From NCBI RefSeq assembly GCF_006088715.1, contig NZ_CP030771.1, positions 9,112,001-9,176,000 on the forward strand: DNA of 64,000 nucleotides, in the 5' to 3' direction. The notes below the pieces were generated by a model. That model was given only the letters and a program-made list of their open reading frames with translations, ran no database searches and was not told the origin of the DNA. Positions within the stretch are counted from its first letter, which is position 1. The number at the start of each line of letters is the position of its first letter. A program made the translations under genes and the position numbers. The DNA is from Streptomyces sp. YIM 121038. GTDB lineage: Bacteria > Actinomycetota > Actinomycetes > Streptomycetales > Streptomycetaceae. This document shows, piece after piece, positions 27,366 to 33,176 of this stretch.

Positions 27366-27402
27366 GACAGGGCCTTCTCCACGCCAAGAACGGGGGGCTC
27401 AC

Positions 27403-28350
27403 ATGGCCACGAGCGGTCCGCAGCGCTACCCCGGAGCGTCGACGTCGTACTGGTACGGCAGCCGCTACCCGGGCTCGGCGATGGAGGTCAACGTCATCGT
27501 CTGGCACTCCACCGAAGGAACGTCCCTGCCCACCTACGGCAACGGAGCCTCGGCGCCGAACTTCACCGCGAAGCCGGACTTCGCGGCGAAGCGCCTGGTC
27601 TGGTACCAGCACTTCGACTTCGACGAGTCCTCCCGCGCCCTCGTGAACCGGGCCGGGGGAGTGGAGACCAACACCCTCAACGCCTGCCAGGTGGAGATCG
27701 TCGGCACCTGCGACCCGACGACCCACGGCAAGTGGGAGCGCGCCGGGTACCTCCACCTGTACACGCCCGACCTGCCCAGCTGGGCCATCCGCGACCTCGG
27801 CGCCTTCGCCCGCTGGGCGCACGAGCAGCACGGCGTGCCGCTCACGTCCGGGCTCGCCTTCAAGGCGTATCCGTCGAGCTACGGCACCAACGGCGTCCGC
27901 ATGAGCGGCCCTCAGTGGACGGCGTTCAAGGGGCACTGCGGACACCAGCACGTCCCCGAGAACGACCACGGCGACCCGGGTGCATTCCCGATGGCCGCCG
28001 TCCTCACCGCCGCCAAAGGCGGCACCACACCGCCCAGGGAGGACGACGTGCCGCTCACCAAGGCAGACGTCAACACGATCTTCAACACCGACAACGTCAT
28101 CGCAGTGCCGCCCGACTGGTCGCCCGACAACGCCTACTGGACCGCGGCCTCGGTGCTCGTCGACCAGGGCAAGCGCCTGCGCGCACTCGACAAGAAGCTC
28201 GACGCGCTCACCGCCGCCAACACCAAGCTCGTCGACGCGGTCGCCCAGCTCGCCGCCGGTATCGGAGACCTCGACCCCGCCTCGATCGTCGCCGAACTCC
28301 GCGCCGCCATCGAATCCATCGAGATCCACCTCGACGTCCCCGACGCCTGA
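27403..28350 (+). CDS. Endolysin, N-acetylmuramoyl-L-alanine amidase
   Basis: A 315-residue amidase_2/PGRP-type enzyme. The zinc/catalytic residues are in VIVWHSTEGT (H35) and in GHCGHQHVPENDHGDPG (H183 and D191 region). After residue ~200 there is a Gly/Thr linker and a helical tail with DKKLDALTAANTKLVDAV, which may be an oligomerisation or wall-targeting part. It cleaves the bond between muramic acid and the stem peptide to lyse the host. Membrane proteins follow directly, forming the lysis cassette. Confidence 0.9.
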   Translation: MATSGPQRYPGASTSYWYGSRYPGSAMEVNVIVWHSTEGTSLPTYGNGASAPNFTAKPDFAAKRLVWYQHFDFDESSRALVNRAGGVETNTLNACQVEIVGTCDPTTHGKWERAGYLHLYTPDLPSWAIRDLGAFARWAHEQHGVPLTSGLAFKAYPSSYGTNGVRMSGPQWTAFKGHCGHQHVPENDHGDPGAFPMAAVLTAAKGGTTPPREDDVPLTKADVNTIFNTDNVIAVPPDWSPDNAYWTAASVLVDQGKRLRALDKKLDALTAANTKLVDAVAQLAAGIGDLDPASIVAELRAAIESIEIHLDVPDA

Positions 28351-28366: not shown

Positions 28367-28684
28367 ATGAACGCATCCCTCGACAAGGCCTACTGGATCG
28401 GGCTCGCCATCTCCGTCGCGCTCCCCGTACTCGTCGGTCTCGTCACCAAGCACGTCACCCACGCCGGCGTGAAGGCCGTCCTGCTACTCGGCCTGGCGAC
28501 GCTGAACGGCTTCCTGGTCGAGCTCGGAAACCCCGGGCCTGGCTGGGACTTCGGCACTGCCGTCGTCCTGGCTCTGGTGAGCTTCGCGACCGGCGTCCTG
28601 GCTCACTTCGGCCTGTGGAAGCCCGCGGGGCTGAGCGACAAGGCGCAGTCGGCCCTCGGCGGCGGCAACCCCAGGGCGGTCTGA
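28367..28684 (+). CDS. Holin-like membrane protein, 105 aa
   Basis: Short protein with three predicted membrane segments (YWIGLAISVALPVLVGLVT, AVLLLGLATLNGFLVEL, FGTAVVLALVSFATGVLAHF) and a Gly/Asn-rich tail. Size, topology and position 16 bases after the endolysin fit a class I-type holin, which opens the inner membrane at lysis time. Confidence 0.7.
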   Translation: MNASLDKAYWIGLAISVALPVLVGLVTKHVTHAGVKAVLLLGLATLNGFLVELGNPGPGWDFGTAVVLALVSFATGVLAHFGLWKPAGLSDKAQSALGGGNPRAV

Positions 28685-29110
28685 GTGCGCTGCCGCATTG
28701 CGCGGCGGCTCGCCCGGATGCTCGGCCGCCGCGGCGCCATCCTCCTCTGCTACGGCACCGTCTGGGCCCTCTACGGCTACGCGCAGGTCGTGTCCCCGCA
28801 GCCCGACCAGCGCGGACTCAAGCTCGTGCTGGACGTCATGCCCCTGGCGGCCTGGGGCTGGCTGTGGGTCGCCACTGGCCTCGTCGCCGTCTTCTCTGCC
28901 TGGCTGCCGCAGGGCCGCGACTGGCTCGCGTTCCTCGCCCTGCCGCTCATGGTCCTGCCGTGGATGACCTCCTACCTGGTCACGTGGCTCACGGGTGAGT
29001 TCGAGAGGGGGTGGGTCGCGACCCTGATCTGGGGCGTGATCGCGGTGCCCGTGCTGGTCGTGGCGGGATGGTCCGAGCCGCCCCGCGTCAAGAGAGTGGT
29101 GAGCTCATGA
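28685..29110 (+). CDS. Membrane protein in lysis cassette, 141 aa
   Basis: GTG start immediately follows the previous stop (TGAGTG). About four hydrophobic segments (AILLCYGTVWALYGYA, AAWGWLWVATGLVAVF, FLALPLMVLPWMTSYLV, LIWGVIAVPVLVVAG). Could be a second holin, an antiholin or a superinfection factor; the sequence does not decide. Confidence 0.55.
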   Translation: MRCRIARRLARMLGRRGAILLCYGTVWALYGYAQVVSPQPDQRGLKLVLDVMPLAAWGWLWVATGLVAVFSAWLPQGRDWLAFLALPLMVLPWMTSYLVTWLTGEFERGWVATLIWGVIAVPVLVVAGWSEPPRVKRVVSS

Positions 29111-29460
29111 CGGTGGACACCTGGGTGCAGGCCGGACTGGCGATCGTCGGCGCCGGAGGAGGCGTCGTCGCCGCCCGTTCCGCCCGCCGCACGAAGCGCC
29201 AGGAGACGCGCGACGACTTCCTTGCCGTCACCGAACAGCAGGGCAAAGCGCTTGAGCGCCTGGAGAAGCGCATCCAGCGGCAGGAGGCCGAGGCGGATAA
29301 GCAGCGCGAGCGGATCGCCGACCAGGACGAGGCGATCGGCTGGCTCCTCCACCGCGTGCGGTCCCTCGTCTCCCATATCCGCCGCCAGGGCACGGAACCG
29401 CCCGAGGCCGAGCCGATGTCGGAGCGGGCAGCCCGCTACATCCGGCATATCGACGCGTGA
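29107..29460 (+). CDS. Membrane-anchored coiled-coil protein (DUF2746-like)
   Basis: A 117-residue protein with one N-terminal membrane segment (WVQAGLAIVGAGGGVVAA) followed by a charged coiled coil (KALERLEKRIQRQEAEADKQ, about 50-80). Actinophages often carry such a protein next to the holin; a role in timing lysis is inferred. Starts in an ATGA overlap with the upstream gene. Confidence 0.55.
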   Translation: MTVDTWVQAGLAIVGAGGGVVAARSARRTKRQETRDDFLAVTEQQGKALERLEKRIQRQEAEADKQRERIADQDEAIGWLLHRVRSLVSHIRRQGTEPPEAEPMSERAARYIRHIDA

Positions 29461-29686: not shown

Positions 29687-29761
29687 GCTTCGTCATGCCC
29701 GGGCGCCCAAATGGGCCAGCACCTGATGGCTTGGCGCGTTATGGTGGTCGTACAACTTCAT

Positions 29762-29838
29762 GCACCTCCCGGTGCGCAGGCCGCGGCTACTTCTTCTGGT
29801 GAATCACGCCGCACGCCGACTTTGATCTCGGGAGGCAC
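29762..29838 (+). ncRNA. Y RNA 1, short form without tRNA-like module
   Basis: About 77 bases. Outer stem CCTCCC (29765-29770) with GGGAGG (29830-29835); inner stem GCGGC (29783-29787) with GCCGC (29808-29812). Between them lie the 5' word GGTGCGCAG and the 3' word CGACTTTGATCTC. Including the adjoining stem bases, CCCGGTGCGCAG and CGACTT(T)GATCTCGGG recur at the same structural positions in the next RNA, which lies immediately before a Ro60 gene. By analogy with bacterial Y RNAs these conserved strands would be the Ro60-binding site. A possible -10 box TACAAC (29751-29756) lies 6 bases upstream. Ends are approximate. Confidence 0.72.
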
Positions 29839-29845
29839 AGCATCG

Positions 29846-29985
29846 GGGGTGCCCGGTGCGCAGATGGGTGGTACTTCCACTGTTAATGGGGTGGTTGCGG
29901 GTTCAAGTCCCGTCGGTGGCATGGCCGCCGTAGCTCAATCGGCAGAGCACCTTGTCCCATCCATCGACTTGATCTCGGGCACCCC
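29846..29985 (+). ncRNA. yrlA: YrlA-type Y RNA with permuted tRNA-like module
   Basis: About 140 bases. Outer stem GGGGTGCCC (29846-29854) with GGGCACCCC (29977-29985); second stem GATGGG (29863-29868) with CCCATC (29956-29961); Ro-type strands as in Y RNA 1. Inside is a tRNA mimic in circularly permuted order: T arm GCGGG-TTCAAGT-CCCGT (29897-29913, loop fits TTCRANY), acceptor-like 7-bp stem CGGTGGC (29914-29920) with GCCGCCG (29924-29930) closed by ATG, spacer TA, then D arm GCTC-AATCGGCA-GAGC (29933-29948) with the GG of a D loop. Y RNAs with tRNA-like domains next to Ro60 are an established bacterial class (YrlA). An ordinary tRNA is excluded by the order of the halves. Confidence 0.85.
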
Positions 29986-29996
29986 GCGCTGAGCTT

Positions 29997-30018
29997 CCCC
30001 TCCACGGAGGGGTTTCTT
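29997..30018 (+). promoter_or_regulatory. Hairpin with T-tract overlapping the Ro60 ribosome-binding site
   Basis: CCCCTC (29997-30002) pairs with GAGGGG (30007-30012) and is followed by TTTCTT. The 3' arm contains GGAGGGG, the only Shine-Dalgarno-like sequence before the Ro60 ATG (11 bases on). The element could terminate the Y RNA transcript and, when transcribed through, hide the ribosome-binding site, so RNA and protein levels may be set separately. Confidence 0.6.
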
Positions 30019-30023
30019 CATTC

Positions 30024-31655
30024 ATGGCCCGCTACAACACCCGCAGCACTCGTCCTGACGTCCACTCGCCCGTGACCACCACCGGGGAGCAGGCCCGCAC
30101 CCACGAAGGCGCCACCGGATTCCTCCGCGACACGAAGAGCGAGCTCTTCCTGCTCGCGGTGTCGAACATGGTCGGCACCGACACCTTCTACGAGACCGGC
30201 GGACAGCGCGACGACCGCTACAGCCAGCTCATCCGCCAGCTCGCCATCGAGGACCCCGCCTGGTGCGTCGACTTCCTCCGCTGGCTCCGCAGCGAGGGCA
30301 ACATGCGCACCGCGGCCCTCGTCGGCGCCGCCGAGTTCACGGCCGAACGCCTCCTCCAGGAAGCGCCCGGATACTCCCGCCAGGCCATCGACGCCGTTCT
30401 CCAGCGCGCCGACGAGCCCGGCGAGATGCTCGGCTACTGGACGTCGAAGTACGGTCGCAAGCTCCCCAAGCCGGTCAAGCGCGGCATAGCCGACGCCGTC
30501 CAGCGCCTCTATTCGGAGCGGAGCCTTCTCAAGTACGACACCGACAGCAAGGGCTACCGCTTCGGCGACGTCCTCAACCTCGTCCACGCCAGCCCCGATT
30601 CCGGAAGGCCGTGGCAGGGCGACCTGTTCAAGCACGCCCTCGATCGACGCCACGGCAGTGACGACGAGATCCCCGAGCGGCTCACCATGCTTCGCCAGCG
30701 CGCCCAGATAGCCACTGCCCTCACAGTCGAAGGTCGCCGAGCGCTTCTGTCGACGGACGAAGGGCGTCAGAGGCTTCGCGCCGCGGGCATGACGTGGGAG
30801 GCGCTAGCGGGCTGGCTGCAGGGGCCAATGGACAAGGCGGCCTGGGAGACGATCATCCCGTCCATGGGCGTGATGGCGTTGGCCCGGAACCTGCGGAACT
30901 TCGACGAGGCAGGCGTCTCCGACGAGGTCGCTGCGCAGATCTGCGCCCGCTTCGCCGACCCCGAGCAGGTCGCCAAGTCCCGTATGTTCCCGTTCCGCTG
31001 GTGGGCCGCCTACAAGCACGCCCCCTCTCTGCGATGGGCCCACGCGCTTGAGCAGGCCCTCGGCCACTCGCTCGCCAACGTGCCGCGTCTGACGGGGAGC
31101 ACACTGATCCTGGTGGACCGTTCGCCGTCGATGTTCCCCGGCTACGGCTTCTCGACCCCGAACCGGTCGGACATCACGCTCGCCGAGCAGGCGGCCGTCT
31201 TCGGCGCGGCCCTCACGCTGCGAGCGGAGAAGCCGACGCTCGTCGAGTTCGGTGGCGGATCGAAGAAGCTGCACGTGACGAAGGGCGGCAGCGTCCTCAA
31301 GCACATCGAAGCGTTCGGGCGGATCGACGGCACGGACATCCCTGCCGCCGTGAAGGCGCGCTGGTTCGCTCACGACCGGATCGTCATCGTCACGGACGAG
31401 CAGACCCGGCCCGGCTGGCTGCCCTCCAACATGGGGTCCTACGGCGGCATGCGCGAGACCGCCATCGACGACCTGGTGCCGAAGACGACGCCGGTCTACA
31501 TGTGGAACATGGCGGGCTACAAGCCCGGAGCCATGCCCTCCGGCAAGACAGGCCGCCACACCTTCGGCGGCCTCACCGATCAAGCGTTCAGGATGATCCC
31601 GCTCCTCGAAGCCGGACGCGACGCCCACTGGCCATGGGAGAAGAAGGCCGCCTGA
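30024..31655 (+). CDS. rsr: Ro60/TROVE-domain protein (Rsr)
   Basis: A 543-residue ring protein. Residues ~10-340 form the HEAT-like TROVE domain (FLRDTKSELFLLAVSNMVG, EDPAWCVDFLRWLRSEGNMR, YWTSKYGRKLPKPVKRGIAD). Residues ~355-530 form a von Willebrand A domain with an intact MIDAS: D365-x-S367-x-S369 in ILVDRSPSM and a later GRIDGTDIPAA. Ro60 binds the outer surface of Y RNAs and channels misfolded or structured RNA; in Deinococcus Y RNA tethers it to the exonuclease PNPase. Two Y RNA genes lie immediately upstream on the same strand, so this is a complete prophage-encoded RNP module. No rtcB or ligase partner adjoins it. Confidence 0.93.
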   Translation: MARYNTRSTRPDVHSPVTTTGEQARTHEGATGFLRDTKSELFLLAVSNMVGTDTFYETGGQRDDRYSQLIRQLAIEDPAWCVDFLRWLRSEGNMRTAALVGAAEFTAERLLQEAPGYSRQAIDAVLQRADEPGEMLGYWTSKYGRKLPKPVKRGIADAVQRLYSERSLLKYDTDSKGYRFGDVLNLVHASPDSGRPWQGDLFKHALDRRHGSDDEIPERLTMLRQRAQIATALTVEGRRALLSTDEGRQRLRAAGMTWEALAGWLQGPMDKAAWETIIPSMGVMALARNLRNFDEAGVSDEVAAQICARFADPEQVAKSRMFPFRWWAAYKHAPSLRWAHALEQALGHSLANVPRLTGSTLILVDRSPSMFPGYGFSTPNRSDITLAEQAAVFGAALTLRAEKPTLVEFGGGSKKLHVTKGGSVLKHIEAFGRIDGTDIPAAVKARWFAHDRIVIVTDEQTRPGWLPSNMGSYGGMRETAIDDLVPKTTPVYMWNMAGYKPGAMPSGKTGRHTFGGLTDQAFRMIPLLEAGRDAHWPWEKKAA

Positions 31656-32564: not shown

Positions 32565-33176
32565 ATGGCCCTAGTTGGGCTCGTCCGGGTGAGCACCGAC
32601 AAGCAGAACACCGAGCGGCAACACGACGCGCTCGACCCGATCTGCATCAAGGTGTTCGAGGAGAAGGTGAGCGGCAAGCTTGCAGCCGAAGAGCGGCCCG
32701 CACTCACTGACGCCATCGAGTACATGCGCGACGACGACATGCTCTGCGTCCAGGAAGTCGACCGGCTCGGCCGCAACCTCCTCGAAGGACTGATCGTCCT
32801 CAACGACCTCTTCGAACGCGGCACCGCCGTCAAGGTGCTCGAAGGGATCGCCGCTGGCGAGCACAGAGAGCGGTCCCTCATCCTCGACCTTGCGCTCGCC
32901 CTCGCTGAAGACCGCCGCCGCGACATCGTCAAGAAGACGAAGGACGGCCTCGACGCAGCCCGCAAGCGCGGTCGCGTGGGCGGACGCCGTCCCGTCATGA
33001 CCGAGGCGCTCGTAATCCAGGCCGTCGCCCTACGCGCCAAGGGCTTCAGCCTCAAGCAGATCCAGCCCCACCTGCGGATCAGCGAGGGCAAGAACAAGGG
33101 AAAGAACCCCAGCATCGGGGCCATCTCTCAGGCGCTCCAGGCTTACGACGCAGGGCGTGACGTCGGCGCCGCTTGA
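32565..33176 (+). CDS. Small serine recombinase (resolvase/invertase)
   Basis: A 203-residue protein with the catalytic N-terminus VRVST (R8, nucleophile S10), QEVDRLGRNLLE (D66-R70) typical of the resolvase fold, the long E helix, and a C-terminal helix-turn-helix (about 145-195, ALRAKGFSLKQIQPHL). ATG follows GAAGGAGG. The size is that of resolvase/invertases, not of large phage serine integrases, so it probably resolves or inverts DNA rather than integrating the prophage. A terminator hairpin follows. Confidence 0.85.
   Translation: MALVGLVRVSTDKQNTERQHDALDPICIKVFEEKVSGKLAAEERPALTDAIEYMRDDDMLCVQEVDRLGRNLLEGLIVLNDLFERGTAVKVLEGIAAGEHRERSLILDLALALAEDRRRDIVKKTKDGLDAARKRGRVGGRRPVMTEALVIQAVALRAKGFSLKQIQPHLRISEGKNKGKNPSIGAISQALQAYDAGRDVGAA

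Follow-up and report, generated by a model that had tools for sequence, protein, structure and literature searches.

In the 64,000-nucleotide stretch of Streptomyces sp. YIM 121038 analysed here (contig NZ_CP030771.1, positions 9,112,001 to 9,176,000; hereafter the window), a prophage carries a gene for the protein Ro60 and, before it on the same strand, two Y-type RNAs that we call RNA1 and RNA2. That Ro60 genes occur next to Y RNAs is already known, and Chen reportedly described Ro60 with a Y RNA in phages in 2014. A first-pass annotation had placed two Ro-type RNAs here on the + strand, and they are where it put them. It overlooked what is surprising, namely that RNA2 encloses all of a permuted tRNA, anticodon loop included. 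Judged from its sequence, RNA2 is a YrlA-type RNA enclosing a complete tRNA that is circularly permuted and opened in the anticodon stem between tRNA positions 28 and 29 (28|29). Our reading, to which we assign a probability of roughly 55%, is that the module of Ro60 and two Y-type RNAs would present a full permuted tRNA mimic with an exchangeable, host-like anticodon loop.

RNA2 occupies 29848..29983 on the + strand, as defined by sequence, fold, Rfam match and comparison, and its Ro60-type end stem enters the tRNA part at the 28|29 break. First comes the anticodon hairpin at 29877..29889 (positions 29–31 CCA, loop CUGUUAA with anticodon GUU, positions 39–41 UGG), which was assigned comparatively, and then positions 42–43 (GG, 29890..29891), which pair with positions 27–28 downstream of the D arm. 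The variable loop UGGUU (29892..29896) was placed by the tRNA register and the T arm GCGGG UUCAAGU CCCGU (29897..29913) by the Rfam YrlA alignment. The acceptor stem CGGUGGC/GCCGCCG (29914..29930) has a 3-nucleotide closing loop, AUG, and no CCA; because this short loop closes the acceptor, RNA2 has no free tRNA ends. The D arm GCUC AAUCGGCA GAGC (29933..29948) is supported by the Rfam alignment and the fold, and is followed by position 26 (A) and positions 27–28 (CC), the first part of the 5′ strand of the anticodon stem (29949..29951). Rearranged into tRNA order, RNA2 reads as tRNA-Asn(GUU).

The permuted order accounts for two blanks: in the window, Rfam at its gathering score gave no match and ARAGORN found no tRNA. 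Below that score, the Rfam YrlA model (RF02553) matches 29890–29951 with model positions 24–84 (38.0 bits, E 6.5e-7), a segment that holds the T arm, the closed acceptor and the D arm. The search with bacterial Y RNA covariance models that the first-pass annotation had proposed recovered the YrlA arms at 38.0 bits but missed the gathering score of 69. The same cut-off was reached in none of 15 related loci and none of 149 genomes, and matches below it, at E up to 0.001, occur in 10 of 11 genome loci. RNA2 is thus a YrlA variant and not a member by Rfam's rule. With YrlA (RF02553; Salmonella YrlA) it shares adjacency to Ro60, a predicted end stem with Ro-type ends, and the order of T arm, closed acceptor and D arm. 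It differs ahead of the T-side stem, where the Rfam model has 23 positions and RNA2 has 42 nucleotides, leaving room for the anticodon hairpin; the passages available from PMC8394870 give YrlA D, T and acceptor arms only.

The anticodon arm was examined across related loci with a detector for a T arm, acceptor and D arm that also required a CTTC or TACTT element close by, run on loci L001–L214 and the window. Loci L001–L090 came from the Ro60 search and L091–L210 from the pattern GGTGCGCAG..TACTTC, among the matches listed. The detector, which lets through some false positives in the vicinity of tRNA genes and allows variable loops of 4 or 5 nucleotides only, returned 113 unique permuted RNAs in 85 loci, of which 82 are less than 85% identical and form a non-redundant set. 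We call an RNA type II if it has the three local pairs 29–31:39–41 and both pairs 27–28:42–43, with G-U allowed; 72/113 unique and 50/82 non-redundant RNAs qualify. Positions 27–28 and 42–43 flank the T, acceptor and D arms on opposite sides, and both pairs form in 71/82 RNAs, a set not selected on pairing. When the letters at 27–28 were dealt among the RNAs and the choice of variable loop was re-optimised in each deal, 2000 deals gave a mean of 27.7 and a maximum of 40. Three Watson–Crick local pairs enclose a 7-nucleotide loop in 54/82 RNAs and a loop of 5, 6, 8 or 9 nucleotides in 0, 1, 1 and 11. All pairs together with U33 were observed in 47/82; shuffling the 24 nucleotides before the T stem yielded a mean of 0.4 and at most 4. 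We placed the break at 28|29 because, in 40 of the 50 type II RNAs, the Watson–Crick run that starts at 27:43 and proceeds inward stops after exactly 2 pairs. Among the 28 RNAs that have no local hairpin, this run is 4–5 pairs, the usual YrlA form, in 8 and 0–1 in 16 in the register used.

Rotation to tRNA order led ARAGORN to call a tRNA in 101/113 RNAs, compared with 16/113 in native order and 0/113 after shuffling. All 72 rotated type II RNAs were called, each with the expected anticodon, a result that is not independent because type II was chosen on pairing. Two alignments were made of the 50 non-redundant type II RNAs: A1 holds 49 of them (L084 was left out) and misregisters 4-nucleotide variable loops, and A2 holds 30, from the class with 5-nucleotide variable loops, at least two more members of which were left out. 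In A2, 98.7% of cells pair and there are 69 double changes, against 12.9 expected from shuffles and with 0 of 500 shuffles reaching that number; as the set was selected on pairing, this covariation illustrates the structure rather than tests it. In the end stem (30 RNAs) both sides change in three of four pairs, and 100% of cells are paired. The folding-energy z score of RNA2 is −2.85; that of RNA1, −0.78, does not stand out.

Adding whole-genome loci raised the collection to 246 unique permuted RNAs, 168 of them type II. Most genome loci are the best matches to a model, R1, that was built from type II RNAs, so the type II share and the loop counts are biased towards type II. U33 is present in 167/168 type II RNAs, and 137/168 loops are identical to a loop among the 69 tRNAs of the window's own genome, the single host genome used for this comparison in place of each RNA's own host. 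The 168 RNAs carry 29 anticodons, led by CAU (32), GUU (26) and GCU, CUU and GAU (18 each). Positions 36–37 are UA in 118, GG in 21, CA in 17, AA in 3 and otherwise in 9; the 69 host tRNAs have TA in 19, GG in 15, CA in 24, AA in 11 and no others, and at the level of sequence the combinations in type II RNAs are much as in host tRNAs.

The loop differs most between close relatives at two of its anticodon positions. Among 2388 near-identical pairs, defined as pairs of the same class with at most six differences outside 34–36, position 34 differs in 0.49, position 35 in 0.45 and position 36 in 0.03, and the other 60 sites differ on average in 0.063. The pair cut-off caps the other sites and not 34–36, which favours high values there, but 36 is equally uncapped and stays low. 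The RNAs of L006 (GUU) and L026 (GCU) are identical at every other site compared. Entropy calculated with no pair cut-off for 43 RNAs of the chromosomal kind is highest within the tRNA part at position 34 (1.08 bits), followed by 72 (1.00), 65 (0.91) and 35 (0.74); after the D arm it is higher still, but lengths differ and columns slip there. We take the variation at 34–35 in these sequences as a lead to diversifying selection and not a test of it. An origin of each RNA by recruitment of the host tRNA with the same anticodon was considered and set aside, as support was weak (mean relative rank 0.37, random 0.5, in 47/50 RNAs).

These loop data bear on the plainest alternative, that RNA2 is an ordinary YrlA linking Ro60 with an effector nuclease (PNPase, for instance) in the decay of structured RNA, with the anticodon arm as a partnerless structural extra. 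Such a RYPER arrangement is known, as passages of PMC8394870 and PMC7790460 describe it, and the 78 of 246 RNAs that have no full anticodon arm by our own criterion retain D, T and acceptor arms, the three features by which the detector picked its RNAs. Passive drift of a partnerless arm would leave unexplained the U33 of 167/168 RNAs, the 137/168 host-identical loops and a near-invariant position 36 beside variable 34–35, and we consider this explanation rather unlikely. A further possibility is that the loop serves tRNA-modifying enzymes that stabilise or mark RNA2, for example through t6A37 on U36-A37 loops. The combination U36-A37 marks t6A tRNAs, and it is the one found in 118/168 type II RNAs. 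Passages of PMC8394870 also name YrlA as a substrate for both DusA and TruB. No single modifying enzyme fits, because G36-G37 occurs in 21/168 and C36-A37 in 17/168, and the variation at 34–35 is left unexplained; as the main function of the loop, modification appears improbable.

After rotation, every cloverleaf segment is present and has the length usual for a tRNA, and RNA2 might be a permuted precursor from which cleavage and ligation would produce a working tRNA. Algae and archaea do have permuted tRNA genes, as passages of PMC3978253 and PMC3218864 describe; a CCA lies inside 20/168 acceptor loops, and in phage Kela a gene for an RNA ligase precedes Ro60. The acceptor strands, however, are joined by loops of 3–12 nucleotides, most commonly ACAACGC (20 of 168), UUCGG (14) and UUCG (9), and differing anticodons sit on constant bodies. 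Variable loops of 4–5 nucleotides are unfit for the Ser, Leu and Tyr synthetases, and all 22 copies with Ser, Leu or Tyr anticodons have such loops, the detector having allowed 4 or 5 only. A tblastn search with Kela's ligase gave no match in the other loci of L001–L212 or the window. The short closed acceptor loops and the Ser, Leu and Tyr anticodons on 4–5-nucleotide variable loops led us to judge a working permuted tRNA very unlikely. RNA2 shares with the permuted tRNA genes of algae and archaea the reversed tRNA halves and the full set of tRNA segments, and differs from them in its short closed acceptor loop, the Ro60-type stem at the break and the lack of any sign of maturation into a tRNA.

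Several observations weigh against our reading of a permuted tRNA mimic with an exchangeable loop. For the window, ViennaRNA gives a minimum free energy of −64.8 kcal/mol, compared with −59.3 kcal/mol when both anticodon helices are enforced, and prefers other local pairing; P(30–40) has a median of 0.18 among the 168 type II RNAs and exceeds 0.5 in 34 of them, and P(28–42) exceeds 0.5 in 3. By our own criterion the full anticodon arm is absent from 78/246 permuted RNAs, so the arm is dispensable in part of the family. For 31 of the 168 loops the single host genome used offers no matching loop, the pairs compared for site variation share ancestry and are not independent, and sites 72, 65, 46 and 44 also vary, at 0.35–0.45 (0.45 at 72 and 0.42 at 65). 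The same RNA occurs at a chromosomal locus too, and phage counter-defence therefore cannot be its sole role. Salmonella YrlA was reportedly not cut by the anticodon nuclease studied in PMC7790460, as far as the passages available from it tell. Finally, tandem tRNA genes in the same genome score up to 40.8 bits with the YrlA model, and the YrlA score alone is for that reason not diagnostic.

This last point touches the idea that tandem tRNA genes next to Ro60 have left these RNAs behind as unexpressed relics, since the junction of two tandem tRNA genes matches model R1 and, below cut-off, Rfam YrlA. The compensatory changes, the conserved Ro-type ends and the single layout shared by phages and a chromosome speak so clearly against relics that we regard this as the least credible of the explanations. 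Partial R1 matches do occur at tandem tRNA genes (for example at G000:C1:3334125–3334202), where the 3′ half of one tRNA and the 5′ half of the next make up much of the module; this fits the duplication model of permuted tRNAs, set out in passages of PMC3978253, and an origin of the permuted RNA by tandem tRNA duplication is plausible. The R1 tallies (243/246 genomes of the genus, 242/296 of the class) were rejected as RNA counts, as many matches are partial (28–104) and those checked are tandem tRNA junctions; one in the same genus, L386, is a tandem Asn pair. In a search of the phylum, R1 matched 20 genomes beyond the class, and one locus from each of 11 (L387–L397) proved to be ordinary neighbouring tRNA genes, called by ARAGORN in 11/11.

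In the mechanism we propose for the permuted tRNA mimic, Ro60 would hold the outer stem of RNA2, and the Ro60 ribonucleoprotein (RNP) would display the complete tRNA shape to tRNA-reading proteins. Since the loop keeps a host-like sequence even though positions 34–35 differ among close relatives, it is probably the anticodon loop that the partner protein reads. As first candidate we suggest, tentatively, that RNA2 is a bait or competitor for an anticodon nuclease from the defence of the host or of a rival phage; ranking behind it as alternative partners are enzymes that modify tRNA and a tethered nuclease, for example PNPase. Passages of PMC7790460 had suggested that the tRNA-like domain of YrlA could inhibit an anticodon nuclease competitively, and TROVE proteins are placed with RNA repair in the passages available from a jumbo-phage paper (PMC7824862). 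Like the nuclease-resistant tRNAs of phages, RNA2 is tRNA-like and phage-borne and has an anticodon loop under apparent selection. The loops of those tRNAs are mutated away from the host according to passages of PMC10264068, whereas 137/168 loops here have an identical counterpart in one host genome; the host-like loops thus speak against nuclease-resistant replacement tRNAs. More speculatively, Actinobacteria and their phages may use Ro60 to display whole tRNA mimics as anticodon-nuclease baits (or as guides or sensors), and the anticodon may then record an arms race. The role in host RNA turnover or stress survival that had been put forward for the module at first is a guess.

The compact Y-type RNA1 (29765..29836, +), identified by sequence, has Ro-type ends and no tRNA part. 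Its ends are CCCGGTGCGCAG at 29768–29779 and CGACTTTGATCTCGGG ending at 29832, and those of RNA2 are CCCGGTGCGCAG at 29852–29863 and CGACTTGATCTCGGG at 29965–29979. The claim that the two RNAs share identical Ro-type ends gained support from related loci: GGTGCGCAG precedes Ro60 by at most 520 bases in 32/40 loci from IMG/VR, and a compact RNA1-like element is present in 52/89 Ro60 loci, which together indicate that the ends are not due to chance. A third RNA form, with the T arm straight after TACTT and no anticodon arm, was seen at L071, L072, L074 and L079 beside other permuted copies. The 5′ Y RNA pattern has a third match in the window's own genome, at G000:C1:6766930–6766950 (locus L211), away from Ro60.

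Ro60 itself (TROVE and vWA domains; 30024..31655, +) is an open reading frame (ORF) of 543 amino acids identified by Pfam, PHROG and structure matches. Its assignment as a TROVE Ro60 protein holds, with Pfam TROVE (PF05731) at 46.7 bits against a cut-off of 23, PHROG 850 (RNA-binding protein) at E 4e-48, and a resemblance to the solved TROVE protein PDB 9kop at E 4e-28. The intact MIDAS ascribed to it is borne out in part: the DxSxS motif is present as DRSPS at 31116–31130 and recurs in 85/85 related ORFs of at least 480 amino acids, but the GTD and TDEQ stretches were seen in one alignment only, that with 9kop. In TROVE domain, DxSxS motif and 9kop match it is like the Ro60 and Rsr proteins, and we saw no difference in kind. 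PADLOC returned no match to a known defence model for Ro60 or for the RNA ligase of phage Kela.

In this group, Ro60 modules occur widely, both in phages and on chromosomes. The protein search found 40 loci in IMG/VR viral contigs and 40 in named bacterial genomes, 33 of the latter titled Streptomyces, Kitasatospora, Streptacidiphilus, Actinacidiphila or Streptantibioticus; of 50,697 phage records it matched 67, none of them with an identity of 60% or more. Within the genus, 128/246 genomes have a Ro60 match, some of them fragments only (E up to 1e-10); the window's own genome has one. In the two genomes whose surroundings were read, the Ro60 locus follows phoX with the same order of ORF lengths, and a GntR regulator flanks its other side in one of them, the only one in which Pfam was run. 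This place next to phoX is chromosomal and not prophage. The description of Ro60 and Y RNAs as prophage cargo has support in sequence, but the arrangement is not rare and is also chromosomal. In phage Kela, an RNA ligase (PF09414, L081:2229–2981) lies directly before Ro60; a link to RNA ligases was dropped, being confined to Kela in the tblastn search with its own ligase, and other ligase families were not searched. Three of the 10 named phages that were read, Alone3, VanLee and Frankenweenie, have part of the permuted Y RNA listed as a normal tRNA, the annotated tRNAs lying at L082:2774–2847, L085:2704–2775 and L089:2745–2835 (Ser gct, Arg tct and Pro tgg).

The prophage setting was confirmed by a terminase, portal, head protease, major head protein, tape measure and holin upstream of the RNAs and Ro60. 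The RNAs had been described as directly after the lysis genes. Of these the holin (28373–28684) matched a family and no other did; the ORF at 27393 to 28350 had no family match in Pfam or PHROG. The RNAs are downstream on the same strand, but 'directly after' is loose, as at least two small ORFs (28685–29110 and 29107–29460) separate them from the holin. The order 3′ of the holin is small ORFs, RNA1, RNA2 and Ro60, the last three on the + strand. Ro60 starts at 30024, 40 nucleotides after the end of RNA2 at 29983, and related loci are laid out alike. Just before its start codon lies a terminator-like hairpin of the intrinsic type (29997..30012, +) whose 3′ arm includes GGAGGGG; such a hairpin precedes Ro60 in 43/88 Ro60 loci, and Ro60 may be made by read-through, with the hairpin as a possible attenuator. 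By eye, many related loci show a TANNNT hexamer ahead of ACAACTTCATGCACC with similar spacing (here within 29715–29765), a possible candidate for the RNA1 promoter; a sigma-70 scan found no promoter at 29715–29765. Beyond Ro60, perhaps near the prophage edge, is a small serine recombinase (32565–33176; PF00239, PHROG 125 DNA invertase).

In the passages of the literature available, bacterial Y RNAs are said to mimic tRNA in its D, T and acceptor parts, and passages from a few open-licence papers hold no mention of a permuted full tRNA with an anticodon loop. RNA2 suggests that these RNAs imitate tRNAs more fully than known before. If this is true, a bacterial case would be added to the known permuted tRNA structures, and phage annotations that list parts of such RNAs as tRNAs would be corrected. 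Ro60 RNPs would become candidates for direct contact with enzymes that read anticodons, and the question of which anticodon occurs in which host would give a sequence handle on the role of bacterial Y RNAs.

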